Source of the DNA: Cyrtodaria siliqua | Taxonomy: Eukaryota > Mollusca > Bivalvia > Adapedonta > Hiatellidae | Assembly: GCA_037043455.1 (NCBI GenBank) | Contig: JAWPHD010011489.1 | Span: forward strand, 1 to 64,000 | DNA: 64,000 bases | Reading direction: 5' to 3' | In this document: piece after piece, positions 12,286 through 44,500 of the stretch | Layout: the number at the start of each line of letters is the position of its first letter | Position numbering within the stretch: the first letter of the stretch is position 1 | Program-made: the position numbers and the translations under genes | The notes under the pieces: model-generated | Seen by the model: only the letters and a program-made list of their open reading frames with translations | The model's database searches: none | Told to the model about the DNA's origin: nothing

Positions 12286-12311
12286 TCCTAACTGTAGCAG
12301 TCCAATAGGCA

Positions 12312-16911: not shown

Positions 16912-19900
16912 TCACAGTCCATACTTCTGTTTTCTATCTGCACCTAAAAAGTATAAACACAACAAATATTAATCTAGTCTTGAATTGGACAACTCCACAC
17001 ATTTGAACATTGTTAATTTTTAAGGAATATAGTAATACCTTGACCCGACCACTCTAATACTGAGAAATTTCCTTATAACAAAATCTGATAAATCTGAATA
17101 ATAAATCATCATTACTGTCAATGACAGTTTTTTCCACCAACGTTTCTTGTCATGAATTTGATGTAAACTCACATCTAATCAAGACTGAACAAAGCTTCTG
17201 AAGTAATAAACAAACTGTTGAGTACTTACATAATTTCAAGGACTCGTCTAGAGCTTTATTTTTGGACTTCTGTTCCAACTCTGAACATAGCAAGTCTGCT
17301 TCTGTGTAGCTGATGTTCAATACCTTTGCTGCTATTGCAGCTAGTGCCTCTTTATTGAGCACATGCTCAGTGTACTGCATGGCCAGACTGAAATAAAGTG
17401 ACATTTACATCTTCCAAATTATGTTAAGGTATACAGCGCTAAGAAAAAACAATCCTTTATAACATTAACTATTCTACAGTACAGAACAGTATCTAAGATA
17501 GTTTGTTAAGATACTCAATGGTGATTGGTTATTGAGCAGGCTTTAAACAAGCTATTAATAACTCGGACACCACGTCCTTCAACTGTCATTTTAAACTAAG
17601 TGAAACGTCAGAAAACATTCAAAACATTTTAAAAGCAATGGGATGTTCGAACAAAAAGTTGAAACTGTTAAAATAGGATAAAGCTGTACATTTTCTTCGT
17701 TCGTTGTGGAGAGAGATGGGCTTCAATGTAACTTGTGAGAATTTGTATTATGTTCAATCTCTCAAAATGTGTGTATGCAATGCACAAAAGTCCATCTTGG
17801 ATAAAAAATAAAATATTTCCAGCTGGTTTATATTGTGGGAGAACAAAACCTGGTGTTTTGAAACACATCGAAACATGCATGCGGCCCTTGGTGTCTATAG
17901 TCTTCAAGTACCACCCACCAGGTATTAGTATACTGATATTGATCTGGGAGAATATAAACCCGCTGGAAATATTGTATTTCTTAAATAAAACATCAAATAC
18001 GATCATGCACTTACAACTTATCTTTCTCCATTTCTTTTATAAGCTGTATGTCCTTCATCCCCACAATCTGTCCATGTCTGGAGTATGGTCTGCTGTTAAG
18101 TGTAGGCACATACATAAATAACGGTTTGTTAAGTTGTAGAACAGAAATAAAATTATGTCGAGCTATAGGCATCTTTACATTGTTCAACTTTTCACAACAT
18201 CAAGCTCTAAATAGTTTTAGTAGCAATGGAGCTTCATTTAAAGACAGTTTAGTTGGCTAATTTACACATGTAACAACTAGGGAAGATGATTATATTTTCC
18301 CTAAGAAGTTGCAACTCCATCAGTATCATTTGTTAGATTTTAAACACACGACTGGTTCTATTTATCTTCACGTTAAACCATTATTAAAGAAAGTATCTTA
18401 AACAAATATAGTACCTTGTTTTATCCAGGAAAAATCGACTTTTTACCATATGTTCGACTGATATTACTGCCTGAAAATCCATTTAAATAAAACACAAGTT
18501 ACAGCATTTTAATTTACACGCAAGGCCATGTTTAAATAAAATTACATCTAATTGAATTGTTTAAATGCTATTTTTTAGAAGTTACAAAGAACCAGTATAA
18601 AAATAATCAGGCAAAAATGATTGATAAATAATTCGGAAGATTTCTGTATATAGAAAACAATTTTATTACAGTTTAAAAATTATCGACTGGTCATATATGT
18701 GAAAAGGATATTCTATTATACACAAATAAAATCACTTACAGAAGGGCTAAACAAGATGAATCCATATCCTCTTAAACATAGATTTGTTTTTCTGTTCAAG
18801 AAATCGACATGCCGTTTCCTCCAGGGTACCCTTTTTATGCAAACGAAAAAATGTATACATATTACACATCTTAAATACTATATCACCACAAACACATCTA
18901 CTTCTTTGTAATATTTCTTTCGTTATAACTGCCCTGAATCAATATACATGGTGGATTTATATTTTCTTGAGTATGTATAAACTGTCGGCATATGAACTGG
19001 TCTCTCTGTGTTACACTTTCCTAAATATACATCTGTCCCTATAACTGGTCTAAGTGTGTTATACCTTCTTGGTTAAACATCTGCCCCTATAACTGATATA
19101 TGTGTATTATACCTTCTTGATGATATATGTGTTACTATAACTGGTCTATGTGTGTTGTTCCTTTCTGATTATACGTCTGTCCCTCTAACTGGTCTGTGTC
19201 TGCTATACCTTCCTGATTAAACATCTAACATATAACTGGTTTATGTGTGTTGTACCTTCCTGATTAAACATCTAACATATAACTGGTCTGTGTCTGCTAT
19301 ACCTTCCTGATTAAACATCTAACATGTAACTGGTATATGTGTATTATACATTCTTGATGATATATGTGTCCCTCTAACTGGTCTGTGTCTGCTATACCTT
19401 CCTGATTAAACGTCTAACATACAACTGGTATATGTGTATTATACATTCTTGATGATATATGTGTCACTTTAACTGGTCTATGTGTGCTATACCTTCATAC
19501 ATCTGTCCCTATAACTGGTATATGTGTGCTGTACCTTCCTGATTAAACATCTAACATATAACTGGTATATGTGTATTATACATTCTTGATGATATATGTG
19601 TCACTATAACTGGTCTATGTGTGCTATACCTTCATACATCTGTCCCTCTAACTGGTCTATGTGTGCTATACCTTCCTGATTAAACATCTAACATATAACT
19701 GGTATATGTGTATAATACATTCTTGATGATAAATGTGTCACTATAACTGGTTTATATGTATTATACCTACCTGTGAAGATCAGTATTATATGTCTGAATA
19801 CTGGACCTACCTCTTAGTTGTTCTTTCACCGCTTATTATGTCTTCAATTCTGTTAATTGCCTCTTTAATCTACAAAAAATGTATCAATGCAAAAATAGTT

Positions 19901-21677
19901 CTTAGTAGACAAAACATTTACGGGATTCACTTTCGTTCAATAAGAAACTGATATAATGTTAATTGTATTATTATACACATCTCACAGGCTGTATATTTAA
20001 TTACACGCATAATAATGCTAGAGACTGCAATCATGTGAAAGAAAAGCAACATATGTCGCAGGAGTACTTACATGAAACATTGCTGTATTTCTACAGATGC
20101 AGAAGCCTTCTTCAATATTGCCCTGGAAAAACATTTTGATATACATGTATAAACAAGGGGCTTTGGATGGTTTTCTTTGCAATTTGAAATTAATTAATCT
20201 ATTCTTCTGAGACTGTGTATGGAGGGGAGGGTTATTCAGTATAGTAATAGTATCATTTCTTTAATTTCATCATCAGACAAGTGTATGCCATTCAGTTGTT
20301 GACTTTTCTGTTGATATATACAGTATATATATATATCATATATAAGACAAAATGTATACATTATTTTTATCTTTATAATCAGCTGATGGATGATCTTATT
20401 ACCAGATACATAACCATTATGCAGTTTGAAAATACTCCAAATGAAATGCCGATAAACAGAATCAATAAAAACTGGATGTAAATCTGCATAGTAAGCAGAA
20501 TAGTGTTTGAGGCTAAAGTAGAATTTCACTCAAATCTATAACATAATAGATAAAATAACACATATATTTTCAGTTTAGTTAAAGAACATCAAGAGTAGGC
20601 TTATAATACTTTTGGTATGAATAAACATTAACCTCATCATCACTCCCAGTCTCTTCGAGAACCTTATTCAGCACTGCCATTTCATCCCATGATTCACTAC
20701 TTGGTTCCAATATCTGAAAGCAAATTTAGTTCAAGTCAATCATGAATTACATGTAAGATAGATACTGCATCTAATTTATTCACAAATATTAACCGTCTCT
20801 TGTGGATAGCGCGTTACACTCTAAATCCGGATTTCAATGGTTTGAGCCTCACTCAGTTGCCACTGGGTCACTTCAACGTGTCCTTAAGCAGTACATTTTC
20901 CTATGCATATTTCCCCTTTCTCTGGGGCGGCTCGAAAACCTAAACAATGTGTTCAGAACCCGTAAAATGAAATTCATTTTTTAAAGGCAAGGTTGGGATT
21001 ATTTGACTGGTATTACAAAAGTAAATAAAGATCAGGATACTACTTTAATTTGAATGTTATTTAAATTAAAGTTATCATCTCTGATGACTAAATTCTAAAC
21101 TAAAATTATAAGGATTTAAGAAAAATATGAGTTTACTTCTTGTTTCGACCAATTCACTCTTCTTCTCTTTCTATGACCAAGTTTCACTTTCATGTTGTTT
21201 GTCGACGACACGCCTGAACACTCCTGAAAAACAGTGGAAGGATTATATTTAGCTATATTTCAGGTGCAGAATACTTGTAATGGGTATGCTTGATGCTCTT
21301 CTTCACAAACGTTAGAATGACATACATAACTAGTTCATACTTCCCATGGTGTAACATTTGTTTTTCTATTTACAGACCTCAGTGCGCTTAAGAGCTGCCC
21401 ACTACTGTCTTTGCTTGGTTTTGAGTCCTGGTGGTGGCAGGTTTAATAGAAATATTCACCTTCATCCTTTTTGGCCATGATGTTGTAAACAGTCCCTATT
21501 TTACCTAATATGATGTGCTGACAGGACACACCACTCCACTTATTTTCATCTTTTTTATTAGTCATATCATTTTACTGATGTTACCAAGTCATTTCTGTTT
21601 GACTGTTCCCAGCTGACACTTGTAATTTTGATATCGTCATCAGCTACATCTGTCATGTCCTTCAGTTGTTGAATTAG
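16912..21677 (-). CDS. exons 19-26: unrecognised C-terminus
   Basis: Eight small exons (31, 29, 27, 17, 18, 25, 52 and 9 whole codons) coding residues 1189-1399. Text includes LIQQLKDMTDVADDDIKITS, MKVKLGHRKRRRVNWSKQE, ESWDEMAVLNKVLEETGSDD, NIEEGFCICRNTAMFH, RPYSRHGQIVGMKDIQLIKE and AIAAKVLNISYTEADLLCSE. It ends DRKQKYGL and TGA at 16912-16914. HRKRRR is a possible nuclear signal, and acidic patches alternate with helical segments. I know no family for it. All junctions keep frame, including the split codons Ser1311, Phe1337 and Cys1390. It could be a separate terminal isoform or, less likely, part of a second gene. Confidence 0.65.
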
Positions 21678-24600
21678 CTGTTGAAAAACATGCAAGTAAG
21701 AAAATGAGTAGGCTAAATGGCTCTTTGATATTTCATAGTTGATAATTTTATATCATAACCTGGTTGAAAAAGGATTGTTATTAATATATTTTTTACAATT
21801 AGTATCTTAATATGTTTATGGAGTTCTTAGTGTTCTCTTCCTATCTCATGTGGATCAATTGATACCTACTCACACTGTTCTTATGTGCAGTTAAGAAGGG
21901 ATCAATTATTAAAATCTGTATGATTTTTGTAAATAAAAACATTTGAATCTGACAGTTCACTTAAAAATTAATAAATGAGGATGTTTGCTGCAGCAACTGT
22001 TTTCATTACCAAAATTAATAACCGATTGTTTTGATAGGAATAAAGTCAAAATGTGCTGCCTTCATATGATTGTAGCTAGCTAACTTTAATTTTTTTTGAC
22101 TAGTTATCCGTGTTAATAATATATTTGTCACAGTATTCTAATTTATTTTATTTTCCAACGTTCATGCGCCTCATTATAGTTTTATGTAGTTTATATATGG
22201 TGTCAATACCTCCGATGTATTGGAATACATTGCAGGTTTTTCCTTTCGAAGAGGTGCTTCTTCCATGTGCTTGTGTATGTATGACACTGGCTGAAATATT
22301 ATATCACCATTATGAATGTTAGCATCAATTTAAGATTCACTTTAGGTATTGAATATTGACTAGTACATTCAAAGGGTCATTAGTGAATGTGTACTGCATG
22401 GTTCAGTAGCAGAGCGTCGGACTTCAGATCGAGAGGTCGCGAGTTTGATCATCGTCGTGGTCGAGTAATTTATCCTTGAGCAAAATAATCATCATTGCAA
22501 GTTATGGTTCTACCCAGGAAGCCATCGAGAGTGATTAATATAAGTTGCACGAACTTGTAAAAGAAATATGTTTAAACTTAGCTAAAAGGTCATTTACCTT
22601 GAAGATTTTCTTTATGAACCAACTATTTCTTAACTAAACCATAAACGAAATGACTTGTAAGTAGATACAGAAGAAATAAAATAATCACCCAAAAGTTTAT
22701 TCTACAAAGTCTGCAGACAAAGACACTGGCACCAGCTCCCAGGTCATTCAGATCCTCTGCCACACAGTAGTTCTTGAAGTGGTAATTTCTTTTACATGTG
22801 TTACACTGAATCTATTTAGAATACAATACAGCGTATTTAAGTATTAACGTATCTGAAGTTTCTACAATTTCAGTCTTGTTGCGTGTTCTGTCCTAACATT
22901 TAGATACATATATTTGCATTTTAAATGTCTTATCATTCAGTCAAGACAAAAAAGAGTCTTCGCCGTAAGGTTGTGGAACAAAAATAAAGAGCTAACAGTA
23001 ATGGATTATATAGCTAGATGATGATTTACTGTTAATCTATAACATGTGAACTATAAAGTTTGATTAAATTATTGGAAAATAGAGTAAACAGATACTTATA
23101 TAACACTTGAAATATATGAAAAATACTATTTAGAACGAAAAAGCATCAAGAAAGCAAAAACAAAAAATGTCAATGATGTACTATTAAAGAAACAGACCTT
23201 TTCATCTTCTCCAAGACCACATCCGCACTTTGGACAGCATCCTGTGAGAAACTCTGAAATTGGTATTAAGTAATGATTTTCTCAATACTGTACTTGTGAT
23301 TTTTTAACAATTGGTATACACATAATTGATATTAATTATCCTGTGAAAATATGGAAGATATTCACTAAACCGGATGTTTAAGAGTATGGTTATTACACCG
23401 GACATGCGTGATAATTATAGGTAATTTACCTTCATACATCATTACTTCAGACGCTACATGTTGCCTCATCACACACAGGTCATTTGATGATATATCCATC
23501 ATAGGCTCTTCTTTTAAGTGCTTCTCAGCAAACTGTAAATTTTAAACTGTAAAGTGTATATAGTGATACCACATTCACAAGCCAATATATTTTATTACGT
23601 AAATGTTAAAAATCAGATTTTGAAAGAACGTCTGATGAAATATTTCTTTGAGAAATATTTATATTATAATATTTTGTAATATGAAACATTAAATGGTATG
23701 CATTAAATGTCTGCTTGTAGAGTGTCAGTGAGACTTCTTCGGACTTGTTCATGTCTGCTTGATAATTCTTTGCATGGTAAGGTGTCGGTGACTGTGGCCA
23801 TTTATTTGATTACGTTTTAATACCTTTAAACAGAACACTCCACAGTTGAATGAGTCCGTTTGCGTGGCATGAGGATTTGTATGGATTGTCCAGTCGGCAG
23901 GGAATGTCTCACCAAACCTCTGGCTGTATTCCAAAACATACTCTCTGAAATAGTTATAACAACACTTTTCAAATACTAAAATTGGGATCCTTCACAGAAT
24001 AATAGAAGAAAGTGATTTTTATTGAGACTGTTCACAAGAGGTAATGTATGCTGCAAACCTCTTACACCAACAATTGCCGGTCTCAGTGGTAATCTTCTTC
24101 GAAACAAAAGAAGTCGACTCCCTTTTATTTAATCAGTTCAAATGTCTGTCAGAATTCAGCGTGGCTCATTGTCATATATAGCACGGTAGACTTGGAATTG
24201 TTTGATTGTAAACAATGATATAAAAAACATTTATAGTAAACATCATAGCGATAAAAATGTACATTCATACTTCTATTAGAAATATAAACTTCAAGGAATT
24301 ACCTTCTCAATCAGTGTATTTGGGGAAAAAATCTATTTGATATCAGATTCAGAAAAAAGATAAAATTTACCTCCATTTCACCAAAACTTTCTGTATCTCA
24401 TGTGCTTGTTCTTTAGCAGGGTTGTAGAAGTACACTTTCCCTGTCTGAACCTCTACCACCTTGATTGGAGTAAAAAAAAAAGTAATATTTTTAATTTAAT
24501 GTAAACAAATATATATATGCGATAAGATATATATATATATATGTATATATACATACGGCTAATGCCGCTATTACAGAACTGGCTAAATGGCATTTAACAT

Positions 24601-27600
24601 ATACCATGTCAGATTGTTAAATTAAAAAAAATCTTCATCTAATTATCTTTTAGCACTTAATGGGTTGGGAAATGTGCTGGTCTCGTTATATAATATAGAA
24701 AAAAGACAGAATGAAAACATCGAGTAAACAAACATGATTTTCACCTACCACAAGAGTCCAATGGCTGGCCCTATGGTACGCACCAATCACTATTTCGGCT
24801 TCACTTAACTGAAATGCACCAGTATAAAGTTATTTGAATCTGTTAGCAAGCCAGTGCATAATAATACAAAATTAAACAATAGTGCAATTTGACATAAAAT
24901 AAGCATAATTATATAGTTTATCTATTTTACTAGTTATTGTTGTACACAAATAATTCGATATTTATGACTTGATTTTCAATAATATTCAATAATACTAGTG
25001 ATATTCACTATAATTCAGGTTGTATAGCTTTGTACAAACTGTTTTTGTTTTAATCTATACATATGTGTATTGATGAGACTTGATTACTAACTTCGTACAA
25101 AAACATTCCGTCATATGTCTGATCACCTGCGAACACAAGGTCAAGTTCACACGCTAATAACGGTCTTGTTTACTGTTGAAAAAAAGATTAAATTGAATAT
25201 GTCCACCTTTCACACATGTATTCAAGATTCCTATGTTTTACTTACCTTGTGTATTGTTTTCTTTGAAGAATGTACATGGTGGGTGCCATTAATGATGCTG
25301 GTCATTTTTGACTGTACAAAGTGGATAACCTTTCTTCCTAAGTCAGTCTGTGATGTCACTAGTAGTGATAAATAACTGTCGATAATCTGCAACAAATAAC
25401 TATTAATGTAAGTCAGAGCGACCTATTTTAAAAAAGCTGCGATAGCAACATCAAGGCATGTTTTGAAAAAATGCCGAAAAGTGAAGAAAAGTTTCTAGTC
25501 TGTTGCTTTTTAAAAAAAAAAAATTTAAAGTCGGGGTGCATTTTAATTTATTAATTAATCCAGATATAGATTGTCATTGAATTTAAATAAATAAATGAGT
25601 AGTATGGTAGGCAAACTATGTCTTCTCTACTTTAATAGAGGCAAGTGCGGAATCAATACCTTATCTGTCAGCCATGTTCTGTTCCTAAGTGACCTCACAT
25701 CAGTATCTGTGACGGTAACTCCATATACTTTGGCAACAGGAATGTCATAATCCTTTTCCAGTGACCACAGTCGATTGACTAGCTCAGATGCTGAAAGTGT
25801 TAGTAAAACAAAAAATTAAAAAGATGTAGTTTTTAATTTTAATTAAGAAAACATAAATCGAATAAACAAAATTTAAAATATTAAATTTGTTCAACTACAG
25901 CAAACATTTATTAAAGTTACCATCCATTAAGCCTCTCTTGCATCTGACATGTTATGTGTTTATATAATGCATATAACGTAATCAATGCATAATATGGTCC
26001 CATTAAAACAAGTATGTCAAGACTTGCAGAAGTATATTAAGTCCATAACCTTACCTACGAAAATGTCAAGGTCAACACCTGACACAGATGATTTTTCACA
26101 GCTTGTTTGCTGCTGAGCTTGTGTTACCTTTAGCCCTGAAAATACAGTTATATGAAAATGTATCTCTTCCTACATCAAAGTAAGAAAATATTGAAAATTC
26201 CGGCATACATCACAGTTTTCTCAAAATAGCAGTTAATAATGTTCACCCAGTAAATTGTTTCTCATTACAAAAGATGCATTACACGTGGACTGATTGTGTC
26301 GTTATATTTTTCAAATATAATTGTGCTGCTGTTTAAGTGTGTATACATACGATTAAAAAGAAGCTAAAGATATTTATAAAAACTAAACACACACATACGA
26401 CAATGAACAAGATTTCATTATAAATGATCTTGAATTATGTTAAGACACCAACATTATGTGACAGAATAGAAGTACCTTGTTCTCTTGTCTCAGTTATGTA
26501 GTAATCATCCGATATAGGAACAATTTTTGCTTTCTTGGCTACCATGAACGGATTTTCTCGTATCTTTCTCTTCAGCTTAAGTCGTGGTTCTTTAACAGAA
26601 AACAATATGTATGATATGTACTCTAAAACGGTCTATATACCAATTTACAATTAAGTATGTAATATGGATTCAAAGAAGCATTTGTAGTTGAAAAAATATA
26701 CTATTTTTCTGTCATTAATCGTTTGTCCAGGCAGACAAGGTGTAACAATATATAGCATAATACTACAACAATGCATATAATACATGCAAACAGTAGCTCA
26801 TATGGATACACATTTCCTACAATTATTTAATTTTTTGTTTGAATTACCTGTTTTTTTGTCACTAGAATTGGTGCCTTTTATTTCATCGCCTGTAGAATCA
26901 GACTGGAGACCTGCATATAACAATATGTTACTTTTGTCAAATAAATGAAGTAGTTTATTGTTAATAAATGACATTTATTGTATAATGTGTACTTTTTAAT
27001 TTTGTTTCTGACCTAAGAAAAACTTCCTTTAAAGAACGGGGGTGGGGTATTTGGATATGATTTTACATGACATCCTTCTTCATTGACCAATAGTTTGCAT
27101 TTTTAAAATTATTTTATCCTTGGTAAAGCCAGTATTGTTCCCAACCCAAATAAAGCATTACTTCTGCGATGACCCAGTTACATGTGTGAAACTGTTTAAT
27201 ATGATGCTATTTGCATGCAATATGTATTTATTTCAAAACATTATTATTGTCATGATTATTTTCCAAGATGCTGTAGATGCTAAATATATTGTAATATTTC
27301 CAACTTCATTAGCATATCTTTATTTAACGTTATTTACATGGTACCTTACATGTTACGTTTTTTCAAAATGTTTTTACATCCATGAATGAATGCCTCTTGA
27401 AGAACTACTTTACTTGCACGTTTGTCATACTATTTATTATCTTGTTTTAGCTGAGTTTGTCAATCTTGTTCAAAATTTCATTTTTGATAGAAAATATAGA
27501 ATCATAATAATTGATGTGTTTTGATGATTTTACCTTTGCCGAAAGCCGCACAAATTAAGCAAAACTTGGTCATTTATTAAATTTGTTTTTAACCAGTTTA

Positions 27601-33600: not shown

Positions 33601-36600
33601 GATGGCTCGATGAGAAATAATTGTATTTACTTATTCACAAACAGTTTCGCATTTACCCCTCGACTGAGGTATTTCTAAGTAATAGGTATAAAAAAAATAC
33701 CAATTATTCAAATAATTTTAAGAGTTTCGGGTAGAGCAGTCACTTGCTTCTCATAAATGCAGTCTGGATTCGATTGCCTCTTTCGACTTTTTAAGGGGTA
33801 AGGAAGGAGGTTGCCAATCGGACATGTGGAGTTTCACCACTAAGTTTTCGGTTTTCATCCTTCGCTGTCACCCAAACCATGAAGACTTATTTGTATAAGC
33901 GGTTTAGCTTGTTTTGTATGAGTTGGTTTACATTATGATGACAATGTAATGCCACTTTTTTCTTTCATAATACCTACCTTCCGTTTATGCTTCTTTGATT
34001 TCTTGTGAGGCTTGCCATATGTGCACATTTTAAGTATGTTCCTATCAACACTGAAGGGAACACCAACAAGTGGAATGTCCTTGTGCCGCCAAAGTAATCT
34101 TCCATTTCCACCTGAAGCATTCAAATGTCTTTTCCTGTCATCATGCCTAGACAATAAAATAGATATATTATAAAAAAATCCTTTTGTAGGCAACATCTAA
34201 TATATATCTATATATATATATTACAATGGTTGGTCTATATACATACGCTGAGTGTCATGTTTTTAAGTGGTAGGTCTATATACATATGATAGGTAAAATG
34301 TTTTGAAGTGGTTGGTCTATATAATTCTGGTAGGTGACCTGTTTTGAAGTGCCTGGTCTATATACAAATGATGGGTGACATGTTTTGAAGTGGCTGGTCT
34401 ATATACATATGATGGGTGACATGTTTTGAAGTGGCTGGTCTATATACAAATGATGTGTGACATGTTTTGAGGTGGCTGGTCTATATACATATGATGGGTG
34501 ACCTGTTTTGAAGTGGCTGGTCTATATACAAATGATGGGTGACATGTTTTGAAGTGGCTGGCCTATATACATATGATGGGTGACCTGTTTTGAAGTGGCT
34601 GGTCTATATACAAATGATGGATGACATGTTTTGAGGTGGCTGGTCTATATACTTATGATGGGTGACATGTTTTGAAGTGGCTGGTCTATATACAAATGAT
34701 GGGTGACATGTTTTAAAGTGGCTGGTCAATATACATATGGTGGGTGACATGTTTTGAAGTGGCTGGCCTATATACTTACGGAAGGTGACCTGTTTTGAAG
34801 TGGCTGGTCTATATACAAATGATGGGTGACATGTTTTGAGGTGGCTGGTCTATATACATACGATGGGGGACATGTTATGAAGTGGCTGGTCTATATACGT
34901 ATGGTGGGTGACATGTTTTGAAGTGGCTGGCCTATATACTTACGGAAGGTGACCTGTTTTGAAGTGGCTGGTCTATATACAAATGATGGGTGACATGTTT
35001 TGAAGTGGCTGGTCTATATACATATGATGGGTGACCTGTTTTGAAGTGGCTGGTCTATATACAAATGATAGGTGACATGTTTTGAGGTGGCTGGTCTATA
35101 TACATACGATGGGGTACATGTTATGAAGTGGCTGGTCTATATACATATGGTGGGTGACATGTTTTGAGGTGGCTGGTCTATATACTTATGATGGGTGACA
35201 TGTTTTGAAGTGGCTGGTCTATATACATATGATGGGTGACATGTTTTGAATTGGCTGGTCTATATACATATGATGGGGGACATGTTTTGAAGTGGCTGGT
35301 CTATATACATATGATGGGTGATATGTTTTGAGGTGGCTGGTGTATATACATATGATGGGTGACATGTTTTGAAGTGGCTGGTCTATATACAAATGATGGG
35401 TGACATGTTTTGAGGTGGCTGGTCTATATACATACGATGGGGGACATGTTATGAAGTGGCTGGTCTATATACATATGTTGGGTTACATGTTTTGAAGTGG
35501 CTGGCCTATATACTTACGGAAGGTGACCTGTTTTGAAGTGGCTGGTCTATATACAAATGATGGGTGACATGTTTTGAAGTGGCTGGTCTATATACATATG
35601 ATGGGACATGTTTTGAAGTGGCTGGTCTATATACACATGATGGGTGACATGTTTTGAGGTGGCTGGTCTATATACATATGATGGGGGACATGTTTTGAAG
35701 TGGCTGGTCTATATACATATGATGGGGGACATGTTTTGAAGTGGCTGGTCTATATACAAATGATGGGTGACATGTTTTGAAGTGGCTGGTCTATATACAA
35801 ATGATGGGTGACATGTTTTGAGGTGGCTGGTCTATATACAAATGATGGGTGACATGTTTTGAGGTGGCTGGTCTATATACAAATGATGGGTGACATGTTT
35901 TGAGGTGGCTGGTCTATATACATATGATGGGTGACATGTTTTGAAGTGGCTGGTCTATATACAAATGATGGGTGACATGTTTTGAAGTGGCTGGTCTGTA
36001 TACATATGGTGGGTGACATGTTTTGAAGTGGCTGGCCTATATACTTACGGAAGGTGACCTGTTTTGAAGTGTCTGGTCTATATACAAATTATGGGTGACC
36101 TGTTTTGAGGTGGCTGGTCTATATACAAATGATGGGTGACATGTTTTGAGGTGGCTGGTCTATATACATATGATGGGTGACCTGTTTTGAAGTGCCTGGT
36201 CTATATACAAATGATGGGTGACATGTTTTGAGGTGGCTGGTCTATATACATATGGTGGGTGACATGTTTTAAAGTGGCTGGTCTATATACATATGATGGG
36301 ACATGTTTTGAAGTGGCTGGTCTATATACACATGATGGGTGACATGTTTTGAGGTGGCTGGTCTATATACATATGATGGGGGACATGTTTTGAAGTGGCT
36401 GGTCTATATACATATGATGGGTGACATGTTTTGAGGTGGCTGGTCTATATACTTATGATGGGTGACATGTTTTGAAGTGGCTGGTCTATATACAAATGAT
36501 GGGTGACATGTTTTAAAGTGGCTGGTCAATATACATATGGTGGGTGACATGTTTTGAAGTGGCTGGCCTATATACTTACGGAAGGTGACCTGTTTTGAAT

Positions 36601-39600
36601 TGGCTGGTCTATATACAAATGATGGATGACATGTTTTGAGGTGGCTGGTCTATATACATACGATGGGGGACATGTTTTGAAGTGGCTGGTCTATATACAT
36701 ATGATGGGTGACATGTTTTGAGGTGGCTGGTCTATATACATATGATGGGTGACATGTTTTGAAGTGGCTGGTCTATATACATATGATGGGTGACATGTTT
36801 TGAAGTGGCTGGTCTATATACAAATGATAGGTGACATGTTTTGAGGTGGCTGGTCTATATACATACGATGGGGTACATGTTATGAAGTGGCTGGTCTATA
36901 TACATATGGTGGGTGACATGTTTTGAGGTGGCTGGTCTATATACTTATGATGGGTGACATGTTTTGAAGTGGCTGGTCTATATACATATGATGGGTGACA
37001 TGTTTTGAATTGGCTGGTCTATATACATATGATGGGGGACATGTTTTGAAGTGGCTGGTCTATATACATATGATGGGTGACATGTTTTGAGGTGGCTGGT
37101 GTATATACATATGATGGGTGACATGTTTTGAAGTGGCTGGTCTATATACAAATGATGGGTGACATGTTTTGAGGTGGCTGGTCTATATACATACGATGGG
37201 GGACATGTTATGAAGTGGCTGGTCTATATACATATGTTGGGTTACATGTTTTGAAGTGGCTGGCCTATATACTTACGGAAGGTGACCTGTTTTGAAGTGG
37301 CTGGTCTATATACAAATGATGGGTGACATGTTTTGAAGTGGCTGGTCTATATACATATGATGGGACATGTTTTGAAGTGGCTGGTCTATATACACATGAT
37401 GGGTGACATGTTTTGAGGTGGCTGGTCTATATACATATGATGGGGGACATGTTTTGAAGTGGCTGGTCTATATACATATGATGGGGGACATGTTTTGAAG
37501 TGGCTGGTCTATATACAAATGATGGGTGACATGTTTTGAAGTGGCTGGTCTATATACAAATGATGGGTGACATGTTTTGAGGTGGCTGGTCTATATACAA
37601 ATGATGGGTGACATGTTTTGAGGTGGCTGGTCTATATACAAATGATGGGTGACATGTTTTGAGGTGGCTGGTCTATATACATATGATGGGTGACATGTTT
37701 TGAAGTGGCTGGTCTATATACAAATGATGGGTGACATGTTTTGAAGTGGCTGGTCTGTATACATATGGTGGGTGACATGTTTTGAAGTGGCTGGCCTATA
37801 TACTTACGGAAGGTGACCTGTTTTGAAGTGTCTGGTCTATATACAAATTATGGGTGACCTGTTTTGAGGTGGCTGGTCTATATACAAATGATGGGTGACA
37901 TGTTTTGAGGTGGCTGGTCTATATACATATGATGGGTGACCTGTTTTGAAGTGCCTGGTCTATATACAAATGATGGGTGACATGTTTTGAGGTGGCTGGT
38001 CTATATACATATGGTGGGTGACATGTTTTAAAGTGGCTGGTCTATATACATATGATGGGACATGTTTTGAAGTGGCTGGTCTATATACACATGATGGGTG
38101 ACATGTTTTGAGGTGGCTGGTCTATATACATATGATGGGGGACATGTTTTGAAGTGGCTGGTCTATATACATATGATGGGTGACATGTTTTGAGGTGGCT
38201 GGTCTATATACTTATGATGGGTGACATGTTTTGAAGTGGCTGGTCTATATACAAATGATGGGTGACATGTTTTAAAGTGGCTGGTCAATATACATATGGT
38301 GGGTGACATGTTTTGAAGTGGCTGGCCTATATACTTACGGAAGGTGACCTGTTTTGAATTGGCTGGTCTATATACAAATGATGGGTGACATGTTTTGAGG
38401 TGGCTGGTCTATATACATACGATGGGGGACATGTTTTGAAGTGGCTGGTCTATATACATATGATGGGTGACATGTTTTGAGGTGGCTGGTCTATATACAT
38501 ATGATGGGTGACATGTTTTGAAGTGGCTGGTCTATATACATATGATGGGTGACATGTTTTGAAGTGGCTGGTCTATATACAAATGATGGGTGACATGTTT
38601 TGAGGTGGCTGGTCTATATACATATGATGGGTGACATGTTTTGAAGTGGCTGGTCTATATACAAATGATGGGTGACATGTTTTGAGGTGGCTGGTCTATA
38701 TACATATGATGGGTGACATGTTTTGAAGTGGCTGGTCTATATACAAATGATGGGTAACATGTTTTGAGGTGGCTGGTCTATATACATACGATGGGGGACA
38801 TGTTTTGAAGTGGCTGGTCTATATACATATGATGGGTGACATGTTTTGAGGTGGCTGGTCTATATACATATGATGGGTGACATGTTTTGAAGTGGCTGGT
38901 CTATATACATGTGATGGGTGACATGTTTTGAAGTGGCTGGTCTATATACAAATGATGGGTGACATGTTTTGAAGTGGCTGGTCTGTATACATATGGTGGG
39001 TGACATGTTTTGAAGTGGCTGGCCTATATACTTACGGAAGGTGACCTGTTTTGAAGTGTCTGGTCTATATACAAATGATGGGTGACCTGTTTTGAGGTGG
39101 CTGGTCTATATACAAATGATGGGTGACATGTTTTGAGGTGGCTGGTCTATATACATATGATGGGTGACCTGTTTTGAAGTGCCTGGTCTATATACAAATG
39201 ATGGGTGACATGTTTTGAGGTGGCTGGTCTATATACATATGATGGGTGACATGTTTTGAAGTGGCTGGTCTATATACAAATGATGGGTGACATGTTTTGA
39301 GGTGGCTGGTCTATATACATATGATGGGTGACATGTTTTGAAGTGGCTGGTCTATATACAAATGATGGGTGACATGTTTTGAAGTGGCTGGTCTGTATAC
39401 ATATGGTGGGTGACATGTTTTGAAGTGGCTGGCCTATATACTTACGGAAGGTGACCTGTTTTGAAGTGTCTGGTCTATATACAAATGATGGGTGACCTGT
39501 TTTGAGGTGGCTGGTCTATATACAAATGATGGGTGACATGTTTTGAGTGGCTGGTCTATATACATATGATGGGTGACCTGTTTTGAAGTGCCTGGTCTAT

Positions 39601-42600
39601 ATACAAATGATGGGTGACATGTTTTGAGGTGGCTGGTCTATATACATATGATGGGTGACATGTTTTGAAGTGGCTGGTCTATATACAAATGATGGGTGAC
39701 ATGTTTTGAGGTGGCTGGTCTATATACATATGATGGGTGACATGTTTTGAAGTGGCTGGTCTATATACAAATGATGGGTGACATGTTTTGAGGTGGCTGG
39801 TCTATATACAAATGATGGGTGACATGTTTTGAGGTGGCTGGTCTATATACATATGATGGGTGACATGTTTTGAAGTGGCTGGTCTATATACAAATGATGG
39901 GTGACATGTTTTGAAGTGGCTGGTCTGTATACATATGGTGGGTGACATGTTTTAAAGTGGCTGGCCTATATACTTACGTAAGGTGACCTTTTTTGAAGTG
40001 GCTGGTGTATATACAAATGATGTGTGACATGTTTTGAGGTGGCTGGTCTATATACAAATGATGGGTGACATGTTTTGAGGTGGCTGGTCTATATACATAT
40101 GATGGGTGACATGTTTTGAAGTGGCTGGTCTATATACAAATGATGGGTGACATGTTTTGAGGTGGCTGGTCTATATACATATGATGGGGGACATGTTTTG
40201 AAGTGGCTGGCCTATATACTTACGGAAGGTGACCTGTTTTGAAGTGTCTGGTCTATATACAAATGATGGGTGACCTGTTTTGAGGTGGCTGGTCTATATA
40301 CAAATGATGGGTGACATGTTTTGAGGTGGCTGGTCTATATACATATGATGGGTGACCTGTTTTGAAGTGCCTGGTCTATATACAAATGATGGGTGACATG
40401 TTTTGAGGTGGCTGGTCTATATACATATGATGGGTGACATGTTTTGAAGTGGCTGGTCTATATACAAATGATGGGTGACATGTTTTGAGGTGGCTGGTCT
40501 ATATACATATGATGGGTGACATGTTTTGAAGTGGCTGGTCTATATACAAATGATGGGTGACATGTTTTGAAGTGGCTGGTCTGTATACATATGGTGGGTG
40601 ACATGTTTTGAAGTGGCTGGCCTATATACTTACGGAAGGTGACCTGTTTTGAAGTGTCTGGTCTATATACAAATGATGGGTGACCTGTTTTGAGGTGGCT
40701 GGTCTATATACAAATGATGGGTGACATGTTTTGAGTGGCTGGTCTATATACATATGATGGGTGACCTGTTTTGAAGTGCCTGGTCTATATACAAATGATG
40801 GGTGACATGTTTTGAAGTGGCTGGTCTGTATACATATGGTGGGTGACATGTTTTGAAGTGGCTGGCCTATATACTTACGGAAGGTGACCTGTTTTGAAGT
40901 GTCTGGTCTATATACAAATGATGGGTGACCTGTTTTGAGGTGGCTGGTCTATATACAAATGATGGGTGACATGTTTTGAGTGGCTGGTCTATATACATAT
41001 GATGGGTGACCTGTTTTGAAGTGCCTGGTCTATATACAAATGATGGGTGACATGTTTTGAGGTGGCTGGTCTATATACATATGATGGGTGACATGTTTTG
41101 AAGTGGCTGGTCTATATACAAATGATGGGTGACATGTTTTGAGGTGGCTGGTCTATATACATATGATGGGTGACATGTTTTGAAGTGGCTGGTCTATATA
41201 CAAATGATGGGTGACATGTTTTGAGGTGGCTGGTCTATATACAAATGATGGGTGACATGTTTTGAGGTGGCTGGTCTATATACATATGATGGGTGACATG
41301 TTTTGAAGTGGCTGGTCTATATACAAATGATGGGTGACATGTTTTGAAGTGGCTGGTCTGTATACATATGGTGGGTGACATGTTTTAAAGTGGCTGGCCT
41401 ATATACTTACGTAAGGTGACCTTTTTTGAAGTGGCTGGTGTATATACAAATGATGTGTGACATGTTTTGAGGTGGCTGGTCTATATACAAATGATGGGTG
41501 ACATGTTTTGAGGTGGCTGGTCTATATACATATGATGGGTGACATGTTTTGAAGTGGCTGGTCTATATACAAATGATGGGTGACATGTTTTGAGGTGGCT
41601 GGTCTATATACATATGATGGGGGACATGTTTTGAAGTGGCTGGTCTATATACATATGATGGGGGACATGTTTTGAAGTCGCTGGTCTATATACAAATGAT
41701 AAGTGACATGTTTTGAAGTGGCTGGTCTATATACATACGGTGGGTGACATGTTTTGAAGTGGCTGGCCTATATACTTACGGAAGGTGACCTGTTTTGAAG
41801 TGGCTGGTCTATATACAAATGATGGGTGACATGTTTTGAGGTGGCTGGTCTATATACTTATGATTGGTGACATGTTTTGAAGTGGCTGGTCTATATACAA
41901 ATGATGGGTGACATGTTTTGAGGTGGCTGGTCTATATACATATGATGGGTGACATGTTTTGAAGTGGCTGGTCTATATACAAATGATGGGTGACATGTTT
42001 TGAGGTGGCTGGTCTATATACATATGATGGGGGACATGTTTTGAAGTGGCTGGTCTATATACATATGATGGGGGACATGTTTTGAAGTCGCTGGTCTATA
42101 TACAAATGATGGGTGACATGTTTTGAAGTGGCTGGTCTATATACATACGGTGGGTGACATGTTTTGAAGTGGCTGGCCTATATACATATGATGGGTGACC
42201 TGTTTTGAAGTGCCTGGTCTATATACAAATGATGGGTGACATGTTTTGAGGTGGCTGGTCTATATACTTATGATGGGTGACATGTTTTGAAGTGGCTGGT
42301 CTATATACATATGGTGGGTGACATGTTTTGAAGTGGCTGGCCTATATACTTACGGAAGGTGACCTGTTTTGAAGTGGCTGGTCTATATACAAATGATGGG
42401 TGACATGTTTTGAGGTGGCTGGTCTATATACTTATGATGGGTGACATGTTTTGAAGTGGCTGGTCTATATACAAATGATGGGTGACATGTTTTGAGGTGG
42501 CTGGTCTATATACATACGATGGGGGACATGTTTTGAAGTGGCTGGTCTATATACATATGATGGGTGACATGTTTTGAAGTGGCTGGTCTATATACAAATG

Positions 42601-44149
42601 ATGGGTGACATGTTTTGAGGTGGCTGGTCTATATACAAATGATGGGTGACATGTTTTGAGGTGGCTGGTCTATATACATATGATGGGTGACATGTTTTGA
42701 GGTGGCTGGTCTATATACATATGATGGGGGACATGTTTTGAAGTGGCTGGTCTATATACATATGATGGGACATGTTTTGAAGTGGCTGGTCTATATACAC
42801 ATGATGGGTGACATGTTTTGAGGTGGCTGGTCTATATACATATGATGGGGGACATGTTTTGAAGTGGCTGGTCTATATACATATGATGGGGGACATGTTT
42901 TGAAGTGGCTGGTCTATATACAAATGATGGGTGACATGTTTTGAAGTGGCTGGTCTATATACATACGGTGGGTGACATGTTTTGAAGTGGCTGGCCTATA
43001 TACTTACGGAAGGTGACCTGTTTTGAAGTGGCTGGTCTATATACAAATGATGGGTGACATGTTTTGAGGTGGCTGGTCTATATACTTATGATGGGTGACA
43101 TGTTTTGAAGTGGCTGGTCTATATACATATGGTGGGTGACATGTTTTGAAGTGGCTGGCCTATATACTTACGGAAGGTGACCTGTTTTGAAGTGGCTGGT
43201 CTATATACAAATGATGGGTGACATGTTTTGAGGTGGCTGGTCTATATACTTATGATGGGTGACATGTTTTGAAGTGGCTGGTCTATATACAAATGATGGG
43301 TGACATGTTTTGAGGTGGCTGGTCTGTATACATACGATGGGGGACATGTTTTGAAGTGGCTGGTCTATATACATATGATGGGTGACATGTTTTGAAGTGG
43401 CTGGTCTATATACAAATGATGGGTGACATGTTTTGAGGTGGCTGGTCTATATACAAATGATGGGTGACATGTTTTGAGGTGGCTGGTCTATATACATATG
43501 ATGGGTGACATGTTTTGAGGTGGCTGGTCTATATACATATGATGGGGGACATGTTTTGAAGTGGCTGGTCTATATACATATGATGGGGGACATGTTTTGA
43601 AGTGGCTGGTCTGTATACATATGGTGGGTGACATGTTTTGAAGTGGCTGGCCTATATACTTACGGAAGGTGACCTGTTTTGAAGTGGCTGGTCTATATAC
43701 AAATGATGGGTGACATGTTTTGAGGTGGCTGGTTTATATACTTATGATGGGTGACATGTTTTGAAGTGGCTGGTCTATATACAAATGATGGGTGACATGT
43801 TTTGAGGTGGCTGGTCTATATACATATGATGGGTGACATGTTTTGAGGTTGCTGGTCTATATACAAATGATGGGTGACATGTTTTGAGGTGGCTGGTCTA
43901 TATACATGTGATGGGTGACATGTTTTGAAGTGGCTGGTCTATATACATATGATGGGTGACATGTTTTGAAGTGCTTGGTCTATATAATTCCACTTACCAG
44001 AAAACGAATTCGCACAATTGATGTCTGGCGTGACATTCAATTACTTTCTCTAACGTCTGTTCGCTGCTCACCCACCCTCGAACGCAATTGGAGGCAATCG
44101 AGTGGATTGTAAATCCCTCGACTGAGCTGTATGTTTCTTCAACAGACAT
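16912..44149 (-). CDS. MULE transposase-SWIM-Ulp1 protease-PHD-like protein, 26 exons
   Basis: Predicted 1,399-residue protein. Coding exons, in order: 44149-43998, 34146-33978, 33521-32531, 31730-31552, 29468-29272, 28529-27769, 26910-26848, 26589-26476, 26135-26055, 25790-25660, 25386-25242, 25126-25092, 24808-24749, 24459-24371, 23944-23824, 23532-23430, 23253-23198, 22805-22689, 21677-21585, 21223-21137, 20713-20633, 20122-20072, 18470-18415, 18092-18015, 17387-17230, 16943-16912. All introns are GT-AG and the coding total is 4,200 nt including TGA. The start at 44149 is the first ATG after an in-frame TAG at 44162-44164. Domains: Cys/His N-terminus, DDE transposase, SWIM finger, basic linker, C48 protease, PHD-like finger, novel tail. 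A nuclear DNA- or SUMO-related role is likely from the domains, but no function is proven. No flanking terminal inverted repeats were recognised. Exon 11/12 and the C-terminal exons are the least certain parts. Confidence 0.82.
17812..17973. mobile_element. MITE-like inverted repeat in intron 24
   Basis: Ends aatatttccagctggtttat(attgtgggag) and the complement (ctgggagaatataaaccc then gctggaaatatt) form about 30-bp terminal inverted repeats around about 100 bp. No coding content, although an open frame passes through. Confidence 0.7.
19020..19765. repeat. minisatellite in intron 22
   Basis: About 14 diverged units of roughly 47-60 bp built from taactggt(c/a)tatgtgt(g/a)t, (t/c)atacctt(c/a), cctgattaaacatctaacat and ttcttgatgatatatgtgtc. 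It lies within the 1.6-kb intron between exons 22 and 23. Confidence 0.85.
20795..20985 (+). mobile_element. tRNA-derived SINE-like element, family C
   Basis: tRNA-like head with tgtggatagcgcgttacact (box A region) and tggtttgagcc (box B region), then cacttcaacgtgtccttaag and ttcccctttctctggggcgg. It inserted in intron 20, antisense to the gene. Confidence 0.65.
21554..21569 (-). terminator. possible alternative stop and poly(A) signal after exon 19
   Basis: If exon 19 is not spliced at 21585, the frame reads VTSVK and stops at TGA (21567-21569). An AATAAA on the minus strand lies at 21554-21559, only eight bases later. This would give a shorter protein of about 1,224 residues that lacks exons 20-26. 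The extremely short 3' UTR makes it uncertain. Confidence 0.4.
22392..22570 (+). mobile_element. tRNA-derived SINE, family A, copy 2
   Basis: tRNA-like head (catggttcagtagcagagcg, box B gagtttgatcatc), then ccttgagcaaaat and a 3' body with ggttctacccaggaagccat and cgagagtgattaatataagt, shared with the copy at 9666-9877. It lies in intron 18, antisense to the gene. More diverged than copy 1. Confidence 0.8.
22689..23532 (-). CDS. exons 16-18: PHD-like zinc finger
   Basis: Exons 23532-23430, 23253-23198 and 22805-22689, residues 1097-1188. After a helical spacer (FAEKHLKEEP...HVASEVMM) comes CCPKCGCGLGEDEK, CNTCKRNYHFKNYCV and VFVCRLCRIN. The likely ligands C1137, C1140, C1150, C1153, H1158, C1163, C1180 and C1183 give a C4HC3 order as in PHD fingers. 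The His-to-Cys gap is four residues rather than the usual two, so PHD-like is safer than PHD. PHD fingers usually read histone tails, but binding is not shown here. The exon 18 donor TGG|GTGATT is weak. Read-through would append a hydrophobic tail and stop at 22623-22625. Confidence 0.8.
23824..25790 (-). CDS. exons 10-15: Ulp1/SENP-like C48 protease domain
   Basis: Exons 25790-25660, 25386-25242, 25126-25092, 24808-24749, 24459-24371 and 23944-23824, residues 903-1096. Text in order: RNRTWLTDKIIDSYLSLLV (the usual W-L-x-D-x-I-I start), DQTYDGMFLYE, IVIGAYHRASHWTLV with the catalytic His H1022, KVYFYNPAKEQ with N1039 where SENPs have Asp, and HATQTDSFNCGVFCLK with the oxyanion Gln Q1084 and the nucleophile C1090. 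The fold is that of SUMO/ubiquitin-like peptidases. The Asn in the acid position is unusual. The exon 11 donor is ambiguous: the strongest GTAAGT (after 25246) breaks frame, while GTAAAA four bases on (after 25242) keeps it. Confidence 0.86.
24490..24552. repeat. (AT)n microsatellite
   Basis: Runs of atatatat broken by gcgataag and gtatatacatac, in intron 13. Confidence 0.9.
26055..26910 (-). CDS. exons 7-9: low-complexity linker
   Basis: Exons 26910-26848, 26589-26476 and 26135-26055, all phase 1 to phase 1, covering residues 817-903. Text includes SDSTGDEIKG, then LKLKRKIRENPFMVAKKAKI and PISDDYYITE, then VTQAQQQTSC and SVSGVDLDIFV. No domain is recognised. It links the transposase/SWIM half to the protease half. 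The uniform phases mean any of these exons could be skipped without shifting the frame. Confidence 0.78.
27769..28529 (-). CDS. exon 6: SWIM zinc finger and basic linker
   Basis: Residues 563-816. QFPFCNCDDFHKNYLPCKHF is a canonical SWIM finger, CxCx9CxH with C635, C637, C647 and H649. SWIM fingers regularly follow MULE transposase domains and are thought to bind DNA or protein. An acidic stretch (about 700-725) precedes a strongly basic region (RKKYKKRPGNKFRRRVGK), a likely nuclear localisation signal. The exon ends at ACAG|GTAAAC. Read-through would give a stop after about 16 further codons. Confidence 0.92.
29090..29215 (+). repeat. copy 5 of the two-stem motif repeat
   Basis: In intron 5. 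Stem 1 pairs gagaggtag (29100-29108) with ctaccgctc (29122-29130). Stem 2 pairs cagtctc (29136-29142) with gagactg (29152-29158). Relative to the copies near 5300 and 6200 both sides of stem 2 have changed, so pairing is kept. The flank tgtgtcgtgctcggccgttt then ccaaaggtcc matches the tail of the other copies. Confidence 0.75.
29272..29468 (-). CDS. exon 5: MULE transposase, third acidic residue
   Basis: Residues 498-562 plus two bases. RWCQAF then TTNNGVESLNKSLKHFYLKL contains E519 in the NNGxExxN context that marks the third DDE residue of MULE transposases. The acceptor is a T-rich ttttttag. The donor is TATAG|GTATAT, and the split codon makes Arg563 with exon 6. Confidence 0.9.
29773..30115. 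mobile_element. MITE with ~30-bp terminal inverted repeats
   Basis: Left end tttaaagggacacacggcaa then tcttgattttt, and right end the complement of tttaaaaggacaaatggcaa then tcttgaagttttt. About 343 bp with no coding capacity, in intron 4 of the gene. Confidence 0.75.
30116..31551. other. rest of intron 4
   Basis: AT-rich intronic sequence with scattered chance open frames. A short inverted pair ttaagagagcgctcagag (about 29990) / ctctgagcgctctcttaa (about 30709) brackets 29990-30727 and partly overlaps the MITE. Otherwise nothing recognised. Confidence 0.4.
31552..31730 (-). CDS. exon 4: MULE transposase, helical insert
   Basis: Residues 438-497, beginning with a codon split across the junction (G/GA gives Gly438). 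It reads KIKSADREDFLTKMRCMAYA then NTEENFTAAM, and ends KNKWLNIRH at a GTAAGT donor. This is the helical stretch between the second and third catalytic positions. It is too short to be found as a single long open frame. Confidence 0.85.
31826..32012 (+). mobile_element. tRNA-derived SINE, family B, copy 2
   Basis: Head ggcgtggtgcagtcggtagc then gcggcggatttgtaaccgga, box B-like tgttcaatcc, and body with gtgttcttgggcaagacact, cggatggggacgtaaacc and tcggtctatcctccgagcac. It matches the minus-strand copy at 13225-13536 closely. It lies in intron 3. Confidence 0.9.
32022..32500. repeat. direct-repeat-bounded insert in intron 3
   Basis: A (TA)n tract then aggggggaatatttgtgaac at about 32049, and again ta(g)gggggaaatatttgtgaac at about 32458, so about 400 bp lies between near-identical 25-30-bp direct repeats with TA-rich flanks. 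It could be a tandem duplication or an insertion. No coding content. Confidence 0.6.
32531..33521 (-). CDS. exon 3: MULE transposase core (first two acidic residues)
   Basis: Residues 108-438. The transposase catalytic domain starts near residue 320. LCLLDATYKTTKYSLPLFFL holds the first catalytic Asp (D341). YFMVDYSEAEINAVEATFPD holds the second (D402). VFICAFHREQAWERW carries the C-x2-H pair (C423, H426) typical of this superfamily. Upstream (residues 140-320) is a helical region without a recognised domain. No stops interrupt the 991-bp exon. Confidence 0.92.
33722..33910 (+). mobile_element. probable tRNA-derived SINE, family D
   Basis: tRNA-like head with tcgggtagagcagtcacttg and ggattcgattgcc, then a body with aaggggtaaggaaggaggtt and gcggtttagcttg. 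It lies in intron 2. Assigned by head motifs only. No second copy seen in the window. Confidence 0.5.
33978..34146 (-). CDS. exon 2: Cys/His N-terminal region
   Basis: Residues 51-107. It contains GGNGRLLWRHKDIPLVGVPF and CTYGKPHKKSKKHKRK. C92 and H98 here, with C130 and H138 at the start of exon 3 (KVGCSARILIRH), form a Cys/His arrangement like the N-terminal zinc-binding regions of MULE/FAR1-type transposases. The similarity is by eye. The acceptor is tattgtctag and the donor AAG|GTAGGT. Very basic C-terminal end. Confidence 0.8.
34222..43992 (-). repeat. 41-bp satellite array B, filling intron 1
   Basis: About 238 head-to-tail 41-bp monomers. On the plus strand each reads gaagtggctggtctatatac then aaatgatgggtgacatgttt, the reverse complement of type 2 monomers of array A. 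A minority type carries ggcctatatacttacggaag then gtgacctg. Higher-order structure: a block containing gatggggtacatg at about 35108 recurs at about 36867 (1,759 bp), with a related 1,800-bp shift to its left. gtctgtatac at 38981 recurs at 39391 (410 bp). The array runs from just inside the exon 1 donor to about 75 bp before the exon 2 acceptor. Confidence 0.96.
43998..44149 (-). CDS. exon 1 of the MULE-Ulp1 gene (start codon)
   Basis: Encodes residues 1-50 plus two bases of codon 51, with SSEQTLEKVIECHARHQLC near the end. The donor is a strong TTTTCTG|GTAAGTGG. Its phase-2 end joins the first base of exon 2 to make Trp51 (EFVFW/HDDRK). It is separated from exon 2 by 9,851 bp, almost all satellite. 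It is chosen as exon 1 because the ATG is preceded by an in-frame stop and the exon joins exon 2 without frame conflict. A further untranslated exon upstream cannot be excluded. Confidence 0.75.
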
Positions 44150-44500
44150 TACAGTCGATTTCTATTTGAACAATGTTCATATGTCTATCATTTAAACTAT
44201 CTGAAGTTAGTTACCAATCTAGTTAAACGTCAGGTTATGTTAACATTTTAACGAATTTATCATTTTACCGCTAGTTTTCATGTTGTTTACTGTTGAAGAG
44301 TTGGAGATCAAGGGAGTTAACTCGGTGTACGCAAGAAGATGACGTCATGTAATCGAAGTGGTAGGTATTTAGTGAATCCCTTTTTCTAAGTTCGACAAAG
44401 CAATCCCGGAAGTTATTCTCGATAGCTTCCGCAACGTCTACCACGTATAATCGTTGGCGGAAATTGTTCACCGTTGTATTTTATTGTTGCAGCTTGTGAA
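44150..44500 (-). promoter_or_regulatory. 5' flank of the MULE-Ulp1 gene with a CRE-like site
   Basis: Upstream of the start codon. A TGACGTCA octamer is at 44340-44347, about 190 bp before the ATG. A 66-codon open frame (44471-44271) and a donor-like AGCG|GTAAAA near 44268 could mark an untranslated first exon. No TATA box is obvious. Confidence 0.35.

Follow-up and report, generated by a model that had tools for sequence, protein, structure and literature searches.

A locus in the bivalve Cyrtodaria siliqua raises the question of whether a gene that joins a transposase to a SUMO-protease-like domain has been adopted by its host or still belongs to a mobile element. The window, by which we mean the whole stretch of DNA analysed (64,000 nucleotides, positions 1 to 64,000 of contig JAWPHD010011489.1), had previously been read from its letters alone, and this sequence-only reading proposed a minus-strand gene of 26 exons and about 1,399 residues ending at 16912, which was either a domesticated gene under purifying selection or an intron-rich transposon lineage. 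Our analysis indicated that the feature is very probably the transposase gene of a large foldback-type Mutator-like element (MULE), a DNA transposon occupying window positions 9003-44380. We favored a transposon over a domesticated gene because the unit has defined ends, target-site duplications, and a dispersed family of copies that mostly lack the gene; of the two options offered, the transposon lineage was therefore retained and domestication was not. As to the extent of the locus, the sequence-only reading correctly recognized a gene but overlooked the inverted arrays of a 41-bp unit and the mobile unit reaching from 9003 to 44380.

Ends, duplications, and arrays of the element

The features of the putative element were as follows.

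9003-44380, gene on minus strand: whole putative transposon, 35,378 bp; ends common to the C286 and C39 copies, 10-bp duplication
8993-9002, no strand: left target-site duplication TTTTTCTAAG, identical to 44381-44390
44381-44390, no strand: right target-site duplication TTTTTCTAAG, identical to 8993-9002
9003-9065, plus: left terminus, beginning GGGAGAGGCTAGTTACC and containing TGACGTCA; imperfect inverted repeat of the right end
44316-44380, minus: right terminus, beginning GGGATTCACTAAATACC and containing TGACGTCA; 88 genome matches of its first 38 bp
9066-13863, no strand: left arm; a 44-bp tandem array lies at 10520-12279 and a tRNA-like insertion at 9666-9877
13864-16215, plus: left 41-bp minisatellite array, inverted relative to the right array
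34227-43986, minus: right 41-bp minisatellite array of about 238 units; occupies intron 1 and is found in the C5049 copy as well

The right end at exactly 44380 was common to copies designated C286, C5049, and C39, and the left end at 9003 was common to C286 (at 410890) and C39 (at 384813). In C286, the sequences flanking the array matched the outer flanks in the window, the exon 1 segment with 98.7% identity up to 44380 and the left arm with 97.4%. A genome search allowing up to three mismatches gave 88 matches to the first 38 bp of the right end, 64 of them exact, and 85 matches to the first 36 bp of the left end, 47 of them exact, while the reversed controls gave none. Dispersed near-identical copies with terminal inverted repeats, which the sequence-only reading had named as the mark of an ordinary transposon, were represented by these ends. 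Within 60 kb of each other, the ends formed 46 opposed and correctly oriented pairs of 257 bp to 47.3 kb (median 13.2 kb), among which C13538 was counted twice owing to its adjacent right ends. A near-identical MULE exon was missing from 45 of the 46 pairs, that is, from all but the window.

Perfect 10-bp duplications were found around the window element and around the C286 element, both of whose flanks read AGGTTGAGAT; the C286 target was also present without an insertion, as a dispersed repeat at window 46474-46794. When the borders of 20 of the 46 pairs, picked by hand to span the sizes, were compared, the 10-bp duplication was perfect in 11 pairs and carried one mismatch in three more, and cross-pairing of the borders as a control yielded no 10-bp duplication at one mismatch or fewer (0/380).

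The arrays at 13864-16215 and 34227-43986 consisted of one 41-bp unit in opposite orientation and flanked most of the gene. A 30-bp piece of this unit had 10,697 genome matches with up to two mismatches and none in the reversed control; among the 100 matches listed were an inverted array pair on C286 and opposite-strand matches about 18 kb apart on C386. Ten copies of about 10-13 kb were sampled with a probe on each side. Nine of the right-side probes fell in the array, reading inward; of the left-side probes, five fell in the array in the inward sense, four fell in left-arm sequence, and one had no match. Derivation of the 41-bp unit from the right terminal repeat was considered as well; it was suggestive by eye but unsupported by score controls, the score of the unit against the right terminus being equalled by 251 of 2000 shuffles and by 124 of 700 other 65-mers of the window.

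Two arrangements of ends stood out in the genome. The 47.3-kb end pair C3026:1012-48318 exceeded the window element in size; its 10-bp duplication was perfect, and it had no MULE exon match. At C13538:38623-38883, three exact right ends in both orientations were crowded into 260 bp, which may reflect a nested or aberrant insertion.

Exons and domains of the gene

The exon model was built on the minus strand with a purpose-written spliced aligner, for which four homologues served as guides (Mercenaria P0087, Mya P0039, Ostrea P0002, and Patiria P0001); an enumeration of splice sites at strict cut-offs was abandoned, as it overlooked real exons. The alignments recovered about 18 exons between 44149 and 17249, so that this part of the proposed 26-exon chain was upheld, but the remaining eight or so exons, the end at 16912, and the total length were not confirmed. 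Fifteen of the 18 exons were matched directly by tblastn from a homologous protein, the weakest being exon 2 and 23532-23425 (best E 0.002 and 0.006), and the backing for 26622-26476, 26169-26055, and 18092-18015 came from spliced alignments alone or nearly so. Neither stops nor frameshifts were seen in the supported exons of the window. The domains followed one another in the order CARF/ALS2CR8, MULE, SWIM, Ulp1/C48, and PHD-like finger, ALS2CR8 being the domain of the vertebrate calcium-responsive transcription factor CARF. The exons are given below.

43998-44149, minus: exon 1 with start codon; tblastn to protein N-termini from Patiria (E 7e-6) and Apostichopus (E 1.6e-5)
33978-34146, minus: exon 2, N-terminal part of CARF/ALS2CR8; tblastn (E 0.002) and spliced alignment
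32531-33521, minus: exon carrying the C-terminal part of CARF/ALS2CR8 and the MULE Asp pair D341 and D402; Pfam and spliced alignment
31552-31730, minus: exon between the catalytic Asp pair and Glu; tblastn and spliced alignment
29272-29468, minus: exon with the MULE catalytic Glu E519; tblastn, spliced alignment, and aligned rows
27832-28529, minus: SWIM finger exon, 3' border uncertain; Pfam SWIM and tblastn
26055-26622, minus: two linker exons, 26622-26476 and 26169-26055, less well supported; borders as in the Ostrea alignment
23425-25790, minus: Ulp1/C48 domain in six exons (25790-25660, 25386-25246, 24808-24749, 24459-24371, 23944-23824, and 23532-23425); Pfam C48 E 1.8e-13, SENP2 E 7.5e-17, and spliced alignments
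23198-23251, minus: PHD-like finger, first half; 10 of 10 residues the same as Mya in the matched stretch
22689-22811, minus: PHD-like finger, second half; 56% to the Mya protein, Pfam PHD on joined halves
18015-18092, minus: C-terminal exon, weaker support; spliced alignment to the Mya and Mercenaria proteins
17249-17387, minus: last homology-supported exon, C-terminal tail; Mya protein residues 853-899

Exon 1 sat 231 bp inward of the right terminus, with the ATG of the model at 44149. Exon 2 alone remained under the Pfam cut-off (21.7 vs 28.9 bits), and the SWIM exon was matched by tblastn from all 17 homologues tried, the weakest with an E of about 0.001. The acceptors of the linker exons differed in the Mya and Mercenaria alignments from those in the Ostrea alignment, and the exon at 17249-17387 gave a tblastn E of 1e-4 in a regional search and 0.028 in a wider one.

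In the Pfam search of open minus-strand stretches between 34.2 and 22.6 kb, ALS2CR8 was matched with E 1.3e-24, MULE (PF10551) with 5.8e-14, SWIM with 1.6e-4, and, on the six joined exons, Peptidase_C48 with 1.8e-13; the joined PHD halves scored E 1.7e-5, or 25.2 bits against a cut-off of 24. The model starting from the ATG at 44149, made independently, placed the MULE catalytic residues at D341, D402, and E519, the very numbers given by the sequence-only reading, whose SWIM finger was likewise recovered. The catalytic D, D, and E were kept in 86, 84, and 85 of 88 aligned rows, window row included, and each of the four SWIM Cys/His positions was conserved in between 74 and 78 of these rows. 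The Ulp1 region was similar to SENP2 (E 7.5e-17), with which the predicted His, Gln, and Cys set of the C48 protease aligned at all three positions. FLYWCH had no match in the 10 pieces scanned with Pfam, SWIM being present. The first part of 33521-32531, the N-terminus of the transposase, scored as ALS2CR8. In the Mya arenaria CARTF-like protein (P0039), a second PHD finger follows the first at residues 740-787; such a second finger was looked for in the window and not found.

Homologues, gene copies, and alternative explanations

Among 7051 candidates, 86 proteins matched at E 1e-3 or below, and their precomputed Pfam annotation listed C48 in 19, PHD in 12, and MULE, C48, and PHD together in six. 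Four of these six came from named animals (Ciona, two Lytechinus, and Hydra), contrary to the supposition that no animal version with a PHD-like finger had been described. The order CARF-MULE-SWIM-C48-PHD was the same in Ciona P0019 (LOC144746767) and Lytechinus variegatus P0036 (LOC121411820), which showed 28 and 34% identity with the window over the aligned part, respectively. When residues 480-912 of the Mya protein were used as the query, only Mercenaria, besides Mya itself, was retrieved among 4487 candidates. A tree was built from 48 rows, consisting of the window row and 47 proteins out of 87 (mostly chosen for known species and passed through a length filter). In this tree, the window was grouped with starfish, two sea cucumber rows, oyster, mussel, and two cypriniform fishes (support 100/98), and the Mya and Mercenaria rows were placed elsewhere. 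The tree did not follow species and mixed phyla, which would fit a transposon with either old lineages or horizontal transfer.

The main MULE exon had 34 matches in the genome, the nearest being C5049 (94%, with one stop), followed by C3433 (77%, broken) and C7046 (69-70%, only two exons recognised); the remaining matches were short or more distant. Ulp1 exons above 75% identity were confined to the window and C5049. C5049 matched only window 21946-44380, its left side ending inside the gene, and its exons 4 and 6 and second PHD half aligned partly or with gaps. The 10-mer on its right flank had no second occurrence in the 40 kb read. Truncation, the stop in the main MULE exon, damaged exons, and the unpaired flank 10-mer ruled C5049 out as a second complete copy. 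C7046 and C3433 were not supported as full relatives: among the tblastn matches listed for 70 kb of the 135-kb C7046 and 30 kb of the 217-kb C3433, just the two MULE exons appeared in the former and split fragments in the latter. Among the copies seen, that of the window was thus the only one to have both ends and an apparently intact gene, and the assembly may lack others. Over 14 exons compared between the window and C5049, nonsynonymous divergence (dN) was 0.018 (44/2452 sites) and synonymous divergence (dS) 0.027 (17/641), giving a ratio of 0.67, which is at most weak constraint and does not separate host selection from transposon selection.

A domesticated host gene joining a transposase and a SUMO protease, kept under selection while the surrounding repeats and ends are accidental, is very improbable. 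Open frames over many exons, a gene body near single-copy, and a C-terminal tail common to Mya and weakly to Mercenaria would suit it, as would the 97-100% identity of the supported exons to C5049, compared with about 96% for larger aligned blocks with introns. However, exon 1 lies inside the terminal segment common to dispersed copies, a perfect 10-bp duplication surrounds the whole unit, and mobile ends and a dispersed family are retained. Moreover, in the tree the gene falls among rows from starfish, sea cucumber, oyster, mussel, and fish and apart from the two clam rows, and the dN/dS ratio, measured against a decayed copy, gave no clear support to the purifying selection that had been taken to point to domestication. 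It was because the gene body is nearly single-copy that the gene was mistaken for a host gene; the case calls for caution, as domestication had seemed indicated by long chains of open exons and a gene body close to single-copy before the ends, 35 kb from each other, came to light. The absence of a near-identical MULE exon from 45 of the 46 end pairs could also be taken to mean that the gene is a separate element or captured cargo nested in a gene-less foldback transposon, but exon 1 is situated, together with its splice donor, inward of the right terminus and outside the right array. The exon 1 segment also recurs in C286 and C5049, and this explanation is extremely improbable.

A real transposon whose window copy is already dead, with the active transposase lost or outside the assembly, is possible but on balance unlikely. 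Only one apparently intact gene was seen, only about 18 of the 26 claimed exons are supported, the left arm carries the tRNA-like insertion, and the assembly is in 26,948 contigs; on the other side, the supported exons contain no stop or frameshift, the catalytic DDE is present, and the identity of 64 of 88 right ends over 38 bp suggests recent movement. Membership in Rehavkus, the Mutator relative whose described traits are a PHD finger and, ahead of the 3' terminal repeat, a minisatellite, is improbable, although the PHD-like finger and the minisatellite arrays correspond to the two traits stressed in PMC6446971. The duplication is 10 bp here and listed as 9 bp there, the arrays here lie towards both ends, and Ulp1 and ALS2CR8 domains go unmentioned in the passages describing it there.

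The preferred explanation, a foldback-type MULE carrying its own transposase gene, also has to face several observations that weigh against it. The inverted-repeat likeness of the two termini amounts to agreement at 11 of the first 17 bases; none of 2000 shuffled sequences scored as high, compared with 27 of 2000 pairs drawn at random from the window. The resemblance is modest, and it is the genome-wide pairing of ends that carries the transposon case. The pairs tested for duplications were not a random sample, and six of the 20 had none at the threshold, with partly matching flanks in three of the six (C7243, C1362, and C14221). Among the C39 array matches listed and read, only one strand was represented, which does not favor the foldback type; given this and the sampled-copy probes, we regard the inverted arrays as a family trait that is not in every copy. 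The start of exon 1 was not found letter for letter in C39, exon 1 was present in C286 with its splice donor altered and lost, and C5049 showed only the right end in the 40 kb read. As for the domains, the predicted PHD-like finger passes its cut-off by little and scores only 14.1 bits with the C-terminal tail attached, and the catalytic Asp of Ulp1 is replaced by Asn in the window in the SENP2 alignment; the same YNP at this site was found in the Mercenaria and Ostrea proteins. Any roles of the CARF, SWIM, Ulp1, and PHD modules would be guesses.

Two other stretches were also seen. A left end at 108683 of C8085 had a 71% Ulp1 exon nearby at 113471-113584, perhaps an older gene-bearing member, and C4425:57715-71908 combined a MULE exon (50%) with Ulp1 exons (71 and 36%), which may point to a related but separate family.

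Proposed mechanism and comparison with known systems

For a transposon of this kind, the start of transcription would be close to the right end, with TGACGTCA located about 190 bp upstream of the ATG, and splicing of intron 1 would remove the minisatellite array. The CARF-like and SWIM modules may bind the element ends, and the D341-D402-E519 site would cut and paste the element with a 10-bp stagger, the gene-less copies being moved in trans. The Ulp1-like protease would probably remove SUMO or a similar modifier, either from host proteins that act in silencing or repair or from the transposase, while the PHD-like finger would probably read histone tails to choose or tolerate target chromatin. 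As a tentative and rather doubtful extension, the window may hold the source element of an unnamed animal-wide MULE lineage that combines CARF/ALS2CR8 and SWIM with a SUMO-protease-like domain and a histone reader, that spread across phyla partly by horizontal transfer, whose foldback ends seed minisatellite arrays, and which was the stock of the domesticated CARF domain.

In plants, MULEs of the KAONASHI type are fused to an Ulp1 protease; ALS2CR8, a PHD-like finger, and minisatellite arrays are not known from these plant elements. The window element shares with the MULE superfamily the MULE domain with its DDE, the SWIM finger, an excess of gene-less over gene-bearing copies, and a 10-bp duplication within the 8-11 bp described for MULEs (PMC6446971), and terminal inverted repeats are present, though short and imperfect. 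It differs in its length of 35 kb, its 18 or so exons or more, the minisatellite in intron 1, and its ALS2CR8, Ulp1, and PHD-like domains. Arthropod MULEs are given as 1.4-10.0 kb, so that this element is about 3.5 times the upper size (PMC13359780), and one study had no Pack-MULE above 7 kb (PMC6431247). Size, inverted repeat arrays, and a transposase with SUMO-protease-like and chromatin-reader-like domains are the unusual features here.

The closest parallels in form were two foldback elements that have been placed in Mutator and have gene-less copies, namely Tm1 from root-knot nematodes and Tetris from Drosophila virilis (PMC3169594, PMC4079207). The window element shares with them foldback-type ends, a variable middle, and MULE-sized duplications. 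A single transposase-bearing copy was described in the tested Tm1 isolates (PMC3169594); in the account of Tetris, tandem repeats lie inside the inverted repeats and feed satellite arrays, and a transposase copy was not found (PMC4079207). In contrast, Tm1-A is 2.5 kb with a Phantom-type transposase, and the window has an apparent source gene with other domains and outermost inverted repeats that are short and imperfect. The Phantom finger is listed as None, FLYWCH, or SWIM in a table of PMC6446971. Rehavkus appears there as a MULE-like group that has a PHD finger, a 9-bp duplication, and a minisatellite preceding the 3' repeat; compared by description only, the PHD finger and minisatellite are shared, and the element was not filed under Rehavkus because of the difference between 9 and 10 bp. 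According to a paper on bivalve transposons, MULEs occur in all mollusc genomes analysed, and the terms ULP, PHD, and foldback are absent from it (PMC10294476); so are CARF, ALS2CR8, Ulp1, and PHD from a paper on transposon-derived transcription factors (PMC10027918). A description of the lineage was not found among the listed literature matches on MULE with Ulp1, PHD, ALS2CR8, foldback, and minisatellite, a scope outside which Repbase and most subscription papers fall, and an earlier database entry is possible.

With an apparent source gene and 46 end pairs in one genome, trans-mobilisation becomes directly testable, unlike in Tetris as described (PMC4079207). The transposase, with its SUMO-protease-like and histone-reader-like domains, offers a concrete test case for the countering of SUMO-linked silencing and the choice of chromatin, and the family is an example of a transposon that carries and spreads a minisatellite.

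No recognisable second gene was found in the left arm (9066-13863), which was not among the pieces scanned with Pfam; the long open reading frames at 10360-12352, considered as a candidate, were the 44-bp array. This array (10520-12279), which yields long meaningless reading frames, was also present in the C39 copy (L065). In the tRNA-like insertion at 9666-9877, Rfam matched tRNA with 35.1 bits at 9803-9874 on the minus strand; CGGCGAACAAGTTT was repeated at the borders of the insertion, which was absent from the C286 and C39 copies and is probably a short interspersed element that landed later in the window copy. Outside the element, tandem arrays were observed at window 1-537, 2151-2866, and 57785-58653, with units of 35, 326, and 72 bp, respectively.

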